Shown in pieces: positions 21,001-61,009 of a stretch of 64,000 nucleotides of DNA (position 1 is its first letter; the number at the start of each line of letters is the position of its first letter). This DNA is from Aureimonas populi (GTDB lineage: Bacteria; Pseudomonadota; Alphaproteobacteria; Rhizobiales; Rhizobiaceae). The translations under genes and the position numbers were made by a program. Under the pieces are notes generated by a model, which ran no database searches, was not told the DNA's origin, and was given only the letters and a program-made list of their open reading frames with translations. The stretch spans positions 496,001-560,000 of the forward strand of contig NZ_CP072611.1 of assembly GCF_017815515.1 (NCBI RefSeq), written 5' to 3'.

Positions 21001-21917
21001 TGGATTTCGAGGGCGTGCCGCCGCAGCTTCCGCAGGGGGGCCTGAACTCCACGCTGAACTACACGGCCGCCCACACCACCTACCCGCTCAAATGCATGCT
21101 CACCCCCTCGGTGCGCGGCAATGCCGGCTGCTACCGCCCCTTCGCGGTGGAAGCGCCGGAGGGCTCCATCCTCAACCCGGCCTATCCGGCGGCGGTGAAC
21201 CTTCGCACGCGCACCGGCTGGTACATCGCGCCCAACATCTTCATGGCGCTCGCCAGGGCGGCGCCCGCAGGCGTCCAGTCCTTCTCGGGCCTCGCCGTGG
21301 CGGCCAATGTCTATGGCCGGGACGAGAACGGGAATTTCTACTCCGACATGCTGTTCTGCGGCGGCGGGCAGGGCGGATCGGCGCGTGGCGACGGGCATTC
21401 GGCGCTCCTCTGGCCGACATCAGCGGCCAACACCTCGATCGAGCTGATGGAAAGCCGCGTGCCGATCCTCGTGATCGAGAAAGCCTTCCTCCCGGACAGC
21501 GGCGGGCCGGGCAAGGCGCGCGGGGGGCTCGGCCAGATCGTGCGCTTCCGCAAACGCGACGACGACGGCCACGTCACGCTCGTCTCCATCTACCCGGAGG
21601 GCGTCGACAACCCCATTCCCGGCCTTTTCGGCGGTGGATCGGGAGGCGGCGCGCTCGGCCGCATCGTCGATGGGCAGGGCAAGGTGCTGCGCGACTGCGG
21701 GACGGGCGCCCTCGTCGAGATCCGCGAGCCCGGAGAGATCGTGGAGTTCGTGCTCGCCGGCGGCTCGGGCTACGGCAATCCCGCCGAGCGCGACCCGGCC
21801 GCCGTCGCGCGTGACCTCGCGCTCGGCTTCGTCACGCCCGAACATGCCGCGCGCCATTACCGCGCCGACCCCGCAAGGGCCGGCGCGACGGGGAGGAGGA
21901 ACCCGGTCGACGCCTGA
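18069..21917 (+). CDS. Fused HyuA-HyuB hydantoinase/5-oxoprolinase-family enzyme
   Basis: A single 1282-residue chain. The HyuA half (about 1-690) begins with the ATPase-fold GFDIGGTFTDFVLYD and has FDMGGTTAKACMI. The HyuB half starts near residue 715 (DPIGLEIMWSRLVNVVEEMW) and ends with GGSGYGNP. In many bacteria the halves are separate subunits; the fused form resembles eukaryotic-type 5-oxoprolinase (OPLAH), which opens 5-oxoproline with ATP. N-methylhydantoinase is an alternative. It is followed by a complete peptide-type importer and regulated by the coupled IclR gene. Confidence 0.9.
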   Translation: MSVPSHRWRVGFDIGGTFTDFVLYDGKTSSVTLHKRLTTPHDPSEAALLGLREILAAKGLSHGDVGEIVHGTTLVTNAVIERKGAPLGLITTRGFRDILEMGTEQRYDIYDLFVAFPEPLVGRDLRLEVEERLDSRGAVVTPLDEAGVRRAAEALVAQGCEAIAVAFLHAYANPAHERRAAQIVRGRFPDLAVSISSEVVAEMGEYQRCVTTCANAYVQPLMHRYLTRLESALRSQGFSGPLRLMHSAGGLVSVETARDFPIRLLESGPAGGGLATALFGKAAGLSDVISFDMGGTTAKACMIENGRAEIAPLLEAARVHRFTKGSGLPIKAPVIEMIEIGAGGGSIAAIDEVGLLKVGPRSAGSDPGPACYGLGGAEPTVTDANLVLGYYDPGFFLGGAMTLDLAAAREAVARVAGPLGLGIEEAALGIHKVVVESMAAAARVHLVERGKDPRAYSMIGFGGAGPAHAVDVARAMGIASVLVPPASGAASALGFLAAPLSFEGVRSRRVELAPGFAGEGVNALLAELEEEGLRRLSAAGVAREDAVVERTADMRLVGQMQDISVPLPSGTLGEDDLPAIREAFIRAYSARYAAPFEGSRFEAVNFRVRVAGPTPEPALTGATGGGEPAARIKGRRLCWFDEGRFETAVYDRYALVAGDEIEGPAIIEEREATTVIGPSDRVTIDAGLNICVSVGALKTDAARLGAGLSRAEAVARIEADPIGLEIMWSRLVNVVEEMWLTVCRTAFSLVIAEAQDFACELLDKDGETLAHSPRAMPVFNLTLPRAVKALLEHYPAETLKPGDVLITNDPWLCAGHLFDIAIVTPAFRDGRLVGLMGTVGHVSDIGGTKDSLHAREIYEEGLQIPPMKLFDAGTANETLLALIRRNVRNGEQVLGDIFSFVAANRLGAERLEAFMADYGMDDLGALAEVVQGLSEKAMREAIAAIPDGDYRSTIANNPLGERIEYPVLVKVRGQTISVDFEGVPPQLPQGGLNSTLNYTAAHTTYPLKCMLTPSVRGNAGCYRPFAVEAPEGSILNPAYPAAVNLRTRTGWYIAPNIFMALARAAPAGVQSFSGLAVAANVYGRDENGNFYSDMLFCGGGQGGSARGDGHSALLWPTSAANTSIELMESRVPILVIEKAFLPDSGGPGKARGGLGQIVRFRKRDDDGHVTLVSIYPEGVDNPIPGLFGGGSGGGALGRIVDGQGKVLRDCGTGALVEIREPGEIVEFVLAGGSGYGNPAERDPAAVARDLALGFVTPEHAARHYRADPARAGATGRRNPVDA

Positions 21918-59522: not shown

Positions 59523-59701
59523 TTCGGAAAGTGCCCCATTCGCCGCCTTCACGCCCGTGCCGGCGAAGGCGCGAACCGGCCGGATGCGGGCGCGCATTCG
59601 CAGGGGCGGTGCTCGTCCCCAAGCCCGCCGGCGTCCCAAAGGTTCCGCTGTTTTGGGGCGCACGAGACGTGCCGGAAGGCACCGCGCAGTCCGGCGCAAA
59701 G

Positions 59702-59808
59702 AAAAAGCCCGCTCGGGGGAGGACCGAGCGAGCTCTTAAGTTTGCGGGCTGGGAGGAGGATGCCCGCTGAGATGTTTATGCCAGACGCCCATTGTTTGAG
59801 CTATGGCC
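59702..59808 (-). ncRNA. Candidate small RNA with two anti-Shine-Dalgarno loops
   Basis: Roughly 107 bases. The 5' part is unpaired; then a GCGGGC/GCCCGC stem (59744-59749 with 59762-59767) shows the loop ATCCTCCTCCCA. Next comes an 11-bp stem with one G-U pair (59706-59734) and loop TCCTCCC, followed by TTTTT, an intrinsic terminator. Both loops complement a ribosome-binding site. Layout and the CCUCCUCCC motif match the alphaproteobacterial cuckoo/alpha-r14/CcsR class. It lies in a 409-bp gap that otherwise holds no gene. Confidence 0.75.
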
Positions 59809-59814
59809 GATCCT

Positions 59815-59842
59815 GCATGGCTGATATGCAAATTCGCTTCAA
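59815..59842 (-). promoter_or_regulatory. Candidate promoter of the small RNA
   Basis: On the minus strand TTGAAG, 16 bases, CCATGC. This is poor as a sigma-70 site but resembles heat-shock (RpoH) type sites; stress control is known for related RNAs. Transcription start would be near 59808. Confidence 0.4.
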
Positions 59843-59931
59843 CTTGCCGTTGCGTCCACTGCCGCAGCCAGCGGTTGATCCCGCCGCGTCGCCGAAGGAG
59901 AATGCACGGGCAAATGGAAAGGACGGCAGGC

Positions 59932-60171
59932 ATGGATGAGCGGTTGAGCTTGGCGCTGGAGCAGATGGACAAGCGGGTGCAGAACGTCCTTACCTTCCTT
60001 CAGGGCGTCGAACCCGGCCGCCCGTCCGACCCCGCCGCCTTGCAGGAGGCGATCCACGACACCGCGAACGTGGCCGCGAACATGCGCGCGCTGCGCCGCC
60101 TGCTGCGCCGCGCGATGCCGGAGGCCGGCCAGGGTCTCACGCGGCCGGACGGCGGCGCCGGCGCGGCCTGA
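59932..60171 (+). CDS. Small hypothetical protein, 79 residues
   Basis: A short, mainly helical protein (MDERLSLALEQMDKRVQNVL at the start) with a Gly/Ala-rich end. No known domain. I chose the ATG at 59932 with AAAGGA upstream; an ATG ten codons earlier is too close to its AAGGAG. It converges on the amidotransferase gene with one base between stops and is divergent from the small RNA. Confidence 0.55.
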   Translation: MDERLSLALEQMDKRVQNVLTFLQGVEPGRPSDPAALQEAIHDTANVAANMRALRRLLRRAMPEAGQGLTRPDGGAGAA

Positions 60172-60172
60172 C

Positions 60173-61009
60173 CTAGGCGGTCGGCGTGGGCCTTGCCGGG
60201 CGGGCGTCGGATTGCGGCGACGGCTCGGGAGCCGCGACGGGCGCGCCGAAGATCAGGCCGAGGAACTGCTCCAGCCAGCGCTTCACCGGCCCGTCATGGA
60301 TGGCCCGCCCCTCCAGATGCGCGCGCCGCCCCTGCGCGCCCGGCAAGGTCAGGCGCTCATGGCCACGCGTGGTCCACCGGTGCACCATGGCCAGCGTCAG
60401 CTCGGCATGGAACTGAACGCCATAGGCGTTGGCGCCGTAGCGGAAGGCCTGGTGCTCGAACACGTCGCTGGTGGCCAGGAGCTGTGCCTCGCGCGGCAGG
60501 GAGAACCCCTCGCGGTGCCATTGATAGACCATGGAGGGCCAGTGCGGCACGAGATGGCGCCCCGCGGCCGTGGCTTCCAGCGGGTAGTATCCCACCTCGA
60601 CCAGCCCCTCCGGATGCGGCCCCACCGTACCGCCGAGCTGGCGCGCCAGCATCTGCGCGCCGAGGCAGATGCCGAGGAAGGGCCGCTCCTCGCGCAGCGG
60701 CACGTCCAGCCAGTCGATCTCGTGGCGGATATAGGGGTCGGAATCGTTGGCGCTGGGCGGACCGCCGAAGACGACCGCGCCGCGATGGGCCTCCAGCGTG
60801 TCCGGCAGCGCCTCGCCCAGCACCGGTCGGCGGATGTCGAGCGTCAGGCCGCCGGCTTCCAGGATCTGCCCCACGCGCCCGGGCGTCGAGCTTTCCTGAT
60901 GCAGGACGATGAGCACGGGGCGCGGATCGTCCAGCGCCGCCAGCGCATAGCGCTTTTCCTGCGCGGCGGTGTCGCCGATGCTGCCGGCCAGCGTATAATC
61001 CTTCCTCAT
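60173..61009 (-). CDS. Class I glutamine amidotransferase-like protein (GMP synthase-like)
   Basis: A 278-residue protein with an amidotransferase fold: the nucleophile elbow FLGICLGAQML and the catalytic His/Glu in VQFHAELT. There is no attached synthetase domain, so it belongs to the stand-alone GuaA-like group whose members often have unknown partners. A ~30-residue N-terminal extension and a Pro-rich tail flank the domain. Start is coupled to the TerB gene (ATGA). Confidence 0.88.
   Translation of the reverse strand: MRKDYTLAGSIGDTAAQEKRYALAALDDPRPVLIVLHQESSTPGRVGQILEAGGLTLDIRRPVLGEALPDTLEAHRGAVVFGGPPSANDSDPYIRHEIDWLDVPLREERPFLGICLGAQMLARQLGGTVGPHPEGLVEVGYYPLEATAAGRHLVPHWPSMVYQWHREGFSLPREAQLLATSDVFEHQAFRYGANAYGVQFHAELTLAMVHRWTTRGHERLTLPGAQGRRAHLEGRAIHDGPVKRWLEQFLGLIFGAPVAAPEPSPQSDARPARPTPTA

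Follow-up and report, generated by a model that had tools for sequence, protein, structure and literature searches.

The minus strand of the window, that is, the whole 64-kb stretch of DNA analysed, probably encodes a two-hairpin small RNA of the cuckoo/ar14 kind that works in trans, which would be expressed from an LsrB/VtlR-activated sigma-70 promoter and act by blocking Shine-Dalgarno (SD) sequences. The predicted mature RNA comprises 67 nt (59768 to 59702, start A at 59768) and reads A-GCGGGC-AUCCUCCUCCCA-GCCCGC-AAACUU-AAGAGCUCGCUCGG-UCCUCCC-CCGAGCGGGCUUUU-U. An earlier note on this DNA had described a GCGGGC stem with its loop followed by a terminator hairpin, and both hairpins and their loops are found on the minus strand in the sequence and in the predicted fold. 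Hairpin 1 (59744 to 59767) has a 6-bp stem, GCGGGC-AUCCUCCUCCCA-GCCCGC, whose loop AUCCUCCUCCCA is the first predicted anti-SD seed. Hairpin 2 is terminator-like and occupies 59698 to 59737 including its U-rich tail, with the second predicted anti-SD seed, UCCUCCC, in the loop; the loop and tail are as described earlier, whereas the stem (AAGAGCUCGCUCGG-UCCUCCC-CCGAGCGGGCUUUU, 59737 to 59703) is predicted to have 14 bp with one G-U pair instead of 11 bp. The placement of two anti-SD loops on separate hairpins was likewise supported, and this layout is common to relatives.

The 67-nt RNA folds at -35.0 kcal/mol, compared with -18.9 ± 2.9 kcal/mol for dinucleotide shuffles (z -5.5). For the full 141 nt considered in the earlier note the fold z was -4.0, and 59769 to 59842 would be mostly promoter. 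An automated terminator scan that treats the stem and the tail as separate items returned no terminator at hairpin 2. Minus-strand reading frames cross the gap, e.g., 59736 to 59972. Going upstream on the minus strand, the first gene that matches Pfam has its end near 60173, therefore the hairpin is not simply the terminator of that gene. TCCTCCTCCC occurs twice in the 64-kb window compared with 0.25 expected occurrences, and its second copy is located at 21891 to 21900 on the minus strand.

In the published description, cuckoo RNAs contain 2-4 hairpins in which the loop motif is conserved and the stem sequence is not (PMC4504443), and a two-hairpin cuckoo-type RNA is known in R. sphaeroides (PMC3927594). 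The RNA of the window can therefore be taken as a new member of the cuckoo kind, and searches of open-licence papers returned no description of an RNA that combines two hairpins with an upstream LsrB/VtlR box. Two Aureimonas strains are named in a table on Paracoccus sRNA conservation (PMC5107571). Comparison with Rfam models gave a match to ar14 (RF02344) at the RNA with 41.1 bits and an E value of 3.4e-6 over 601 bases searched, or 5.1e-6 when the whole genome was searched. This score lies below the 58.8-bit gathering score that marks Rfam membership, and the CcsR1 model gave no match at the locus in a search with relaxed thresholds. No Rfam model matched the RNA over its gathering score, and at gathering thresholds a tRNA was the sole match in the window. 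Other names that appeared below threshold here (Scr3202, ATPC, ftsZ-DE, Rhizobiales-2, mmgR and others) were judged to be chance or shared-terminator matches.

Three ar14-like copies are present in this genome at E <= 1e-4. The paralogue L001 scores 84.6 bits and has three hairpins downstream of a DUF1127-like frame; L002 is the copy in the window; L003 scores 36.4 bits and has two hairpins, with UUCCUCCC in a loop. Two further matches of 18 bits (L004 and L005) were judged chance, because ar14 at E <= 10 matches 9 of 14 control genomes, none over the cut-off. At E <= 0.01, ar14-like matches were detected in all 21 genus genomes (2 to 11 each) and in 46 of 61 genomes, the own genome included, vs none of the 14 controls. 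Two genus genomes, G012 (L032, L201-L209) and G019 (L027, L221-L228), hold 11 and 10 ar14-like matches, many of them preceded by DUF1127-like frames, so that CIN1-type loci have expanded locally. In G006 (L017:1395-1680), two three-hairpin ar14 units stand in tandem, with six consecutive anti-SD hairpins. Like ar14/NfeR1 of Sinorhizobium and relatives, the RNA of the window carries an anti-SD loop in every hairpin, including the terminator. It differs from them in size, with two hairpins and about 67 nt compared with three and about 120 nt, and in motif content, since each of the three ar14/NfeR1 hairpins has CCUCCUCCC, whereas here the full motif occurs in the first hairpin and UCCUCCC in the second.

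The promoter is predicted to be of the LsrB/VtlR type. A palindrome, GCATATCAGCCATGC (GCATGGCTGATATGC on the other strand), at 59815 to 59829 on the minus strand (-61 to -47) is the predicted box for a LysR regulator of this type, and on the plus strand it fits the published VtlR consensus GCAT-N3-TG-N3-T exactly. This sequence was proposed as the VtlR box and is described as confirmed for B. abortus and as a hypothesis for A. tumefaciens; in S. meliloti PabcR1, on which LsrB acts, the same motif occupies -61 to -49 (PMC7486931, PMC8844928). The first of these papers reports that lsrB did not affect the AbcR RNAs in S. meliloti 1021 (PMC7486931); the later one found such an effect with a deletion made in Sm2011 (PMC8844928). 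In S. meliloti, LsrB activates the ar14 RNA NfeR1 by way of a TGCA-N6-GCAT sequence located around -72 to -57 (PMC10746234). A sigma-70 promoter with an upstream LsrB box is known from NfeR1 and predicted in the window, but the window box, GCAT-N7-ATGC at -61 to -47, has the AbcR1 placing. Taken alone, the palindrome occurs once in the 64 kb compared with 1.67 expected occurrences, which is not significant by itself.

Downstream of the box, CATAAA (59775 to 59780, minus strand) may serve as the sigma-70 -10 element, 49 nt from the box start and at -12, with TAGCTC (59798-59803, minus strand) as its weak -35 candidate. A generic sigma-70 promoter scan found nothing at this promoter; CATAAA sits where ar15 loci have CATATC-like -10 sequences. 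The box is present in 9 of 10 ar15 loci outside the genus, at -61 in eight and -62 in one, with distances counted from model starts rather than mapped starts and the ten loci being those fetched of 30 matches. From this geometry (61-62 nt before the model start) the start in the window is predicted at 59768, a single base ahead of the stem of hairpin 1. BLAST identity between the window and the 10 other loci with a GCGGG-type stem ends within 2 bases of 59768 in eight and runs 9-11 bases beyond it in the remaining two. The box followed after 35-65 nt by TCCTCCC was matched 34 times in 15 of the 21 genus genomes compared with 2 times for the reversed pattern; 26 of these matches are among the 27 two-hairpin box loci of the genus, two are one-hairpin loci (L100 and L200) and six look like chance. 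With 45-65 nt between the elements, 45 of 101 family genomes were matched and none by the reversed pattern. L100 (G001) and L200 (G010) have the box and UUCCUCCC in hairpin 1, with no later anti-SD hairpin found, and are possibly one-seed forms.

With regard to AbcR1/ar15, the likeness lies in the promoter geometry (box at -61, -10 at -12) and in the anti-SD loop of the first hairpin. However, the RNA of the window gave no match to the ar15 model, lacks the UUCCCCUC (aSD2) core and the middle hairpin, and has an anti-SD sequence in its terminator loop as in ar14, unlike AbcR1/ar15.

The earlier note had proposed an RpoH-type promoter, and the corresponding reading, a CcsR-like stress RNA with a longer 5' end transcribed from GTTGAA-N16-GCCATGC, is considered unlikely. 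The 16 nt between the two elements match the spacing in the RpoH1 consensus. RpoHI/HII drive the CcsR RNAs, RpoH1 drives S. meliloti AbcR2 (PMC8844928), and a two-hairpin form of a CcsR-like RNA is known in R. sphaeroides. Nevertheless, TTGAA, the proposed -35, stands near 1 of 27 boxes, a count that makes a narrow test, and in this sequence-level test the proposed site did not match the RpoH1 consensus of S. meliloti even when up to 3 mismatches were allowed. The proposed -10 falls inside the conserved palindrome that fits the VtlR/LsrB box, and the RpoH promoter was rejected because it is not conserved among the box loci. Similarity to relatives mostly ends at 59768, which also counts against this reading. 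The assignment to the cuckoo/ar14/CcsR kind made in the earlier note stands as far as a cuckoo/ar14 RNA with CCUCCUCCC is concerned, but the CcsR/CIN1 setting was not recovered: in a motif-based search, no DUF1127-like frame was found within 330 nt upstream of the window copy, whereas one is present at the paralogue L001. Like the cuckoo RNAs, including CcsR1-4 of Rhodobacter sphaeroides (RF02791), the RNA of the window falls within 2-4 hairpins and combines a conserved loop motif with free stems. CcsR RNAs are cut from DUF1127 mRNA, whereas this RNA has its own predicted box promoter. Its predicted switch would be closer to those of other RNAs that control transport than to a heat-shock switch.

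The cuckoo/ar14-kind reading is consistent with how such loci are arranged in the genus. Across the 21 genus genomes, 99 loci, collected as ar14 matches and further box or BLAST hits, were classified with a rough, self-devised rule for counting hairpins. The palindrome GCAT-N7-ATGY lies 54-58 nt before the first CCTCC in 29 of them, of which 27 have two anti-SD hairpins (13 genomes) and two have one. The fixed spacing is common to the window locus and the 28 other near-box loci, which were chosen partly by the box, and for this reason the box alone is not independent evidence. Among the 27 two-hairpin loci, the first TCCTCCC follows the box after 53-58 nt, the strict VtlR/LsrB consensus is fitted on one strand in 19 and missed in eight, and 11 have the GCGGG stem of the window while 16 have other stems. 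A related box, GCA-N9-TGC, lies 64-69 nt away in eight loci, all with at least three CCTCC elements. A DUF1127-like frame is found upstream of 45 loci, none of which has the box and 36 of which have three hairpins. The remaining 17 loci have neither tag. Five of them (L020, L028, L031, L184 and L191) contain GCAATGCAGCNATGC 110-116 nt before the first CCTCC, and these three-hairpin loci are possibly box-driven RNAs with a longer leader. L069, L072, L209 and L231 have two hairpins, no DUF1127 flag and no recognised box, and L069 and L072 were left out of the 27-locus set. Within the genus, the number of hairpins mostly corresponds to the type of promoter.

In the lower five base pairs of hairpin 1, nine distinct arm pairs occur in the 27 loci; 40 of 45 cells pair and 8 of 45 are changed on both sides. 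Shuffled arms reach the observed pairing in 3 of 2000 and the two-sided changes in 23 of 2000 trials, figures that are favoured by taking the arms from predicted folds and inflated by related sequences. The loop core is kept while the stem varies between locus types, as in cuckoo RNAs, here with two hairpins. Covariance of the stems, named in the earlier note as a check, was found in part: pairing is kept between types, and in the terminator 4 of 10 consensus pairs show compensatory change over the 27 loci, but the lower stem is invariant within the 11 GCGGG-type loci and shows no covariation there. The covariation of this stem therefore rests on the comparison with the other locus type. RNAalifold on the 27 loci returned pairs in the terminator alone, the first stems being out of register in that alignment.

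The site of the window copy is not shared with the relatives compared, and it could therefore be an idle or decayed element, either a terminator-like hairpin pair or a relocated ar14-type copy that is no longer transcribed or used. Its flanks match no other two-hairpin locus compared, several of which share sites among themselves; the 23 loci compared, of the 26 other two-hairpin loci, match the window locus within or just beyond the RNA only, and the neighbouring genes are rare, each being present in 2 of 21 genus genomes. In addition, only one of the six NfeR1-type copies of S. meliloti has been reliably detected. Against this, none of the elements (box, -10-like sequence, start, both loops, terminator) is missing and their spacing agrees with that in relatives, and loss of use is considered improbable. 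Synteny was rejected as support for the RNA. The neighbouring protein has 13 named relatives, 6 of them in Aureimonas, the best being from Mangrovicella and Aureimonas with 73-76% identity, and 12 of 13 amidotransferase-relative loci have no anti-SD hairpin in up to 3 kb of flank; the 13th (L047) has a single anti-SD hairpin and no terminator. A local cis element, with a target such as the divergent small frame at 59932-60171, is very improbable: the box does lie between the RNA and this frame, but the frame was rejected as a partner because 2 of 21 genus genomes have it, no box was found in the G006 stretch around it, and the two-hairpin loci share little with the window outside the RNA.

In a search with stricter filters, ar15 (RF02345) scored over the cut-off of 40 bits in none of the 21 genus genomes and in 9 of 61 overall. 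Three genus genomes gave weak ar15 matches of 25.8-28.3 bits, and in this genome there was no ar15 match at E <= 0.01 and no copy of the AbcR core 16-mer. Of 101 family genomes sampled, 61 contain the 16-mer, whereas the two genus members in the sample lack it. Since no ar15 match passed the cut-off in the 21 genus genomes, the two-hairpin RNAs may stand in for AbcR1. In this genome trxB is immediately followed by a LysR gene (L120), as has been described for vtlR, and the product of L120 matches the LysR-family chain 9hh1_A over its whole length with 450.7 bits. From at least 70 matches listed in the family-wide pattern search, 26 loci were selected by eye for strong palindromes and an appearance unlike AbcR. 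On inspection, 20 of these 26 showed three or more anti-SD hairpins, five were AbcR-like (two of them with the UUCCCCUCU core) and one, L169 in another genus of the family, had the box with the two-hairpin anti-SD layout.

NfeR1 and AbcR1/2 are reported to silence mRNAs at the ribosome-binding site through anti-SD loops. In the favoured reading, a LysR activator of the LsrB/VtlR type would bind the palindrome at 59829-59815 and recruit sigma-70 RNA polymerase, and transcription would run from about 59768 for some 67 nt to the terminator. By pairing with GGGAGGA-type SD sequences, the C/U-rich loops may then keep ribosomes off several mRNAs, which would lower the expression of uptake and catabolic genes. 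GGGAGGAG-N3-9-ATG occurs at 22 sites in the genome compared with 7 for the reversed pattern. Ten of the 22 downstream frames were compared with Pfam and eight matched, including a TctC transport receptor, a catechol dioxygenase, an FAD-binding protein, an IclR regulator and a PHB regulator. These candidate targets would fit a carbon-use regulon. A GGGAGGAG start site of a reading frame unmatched in Pfam, at 2971-2986 on the plus strand of the window, is another candidate target.

For an RNA missed by a library search at default thresholds, a predicted promoter, start and 67-nt body can now be given. We suggest tentatively, at somewhat less than even confidence, that in this genus LsrB/VtlR output no longer runs through AbcR1 and that minimal two-hairpin cuckoo RNAs, multiplied in some species, have assumed this role; these RNAs would keep the AbcR1 promoter geometry, have an ar14-type body and have moved between chromosomal sites together with the box. 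If this replacement of AbcR1 holds, the regulator would have kept its job while its RNA was exchanged.
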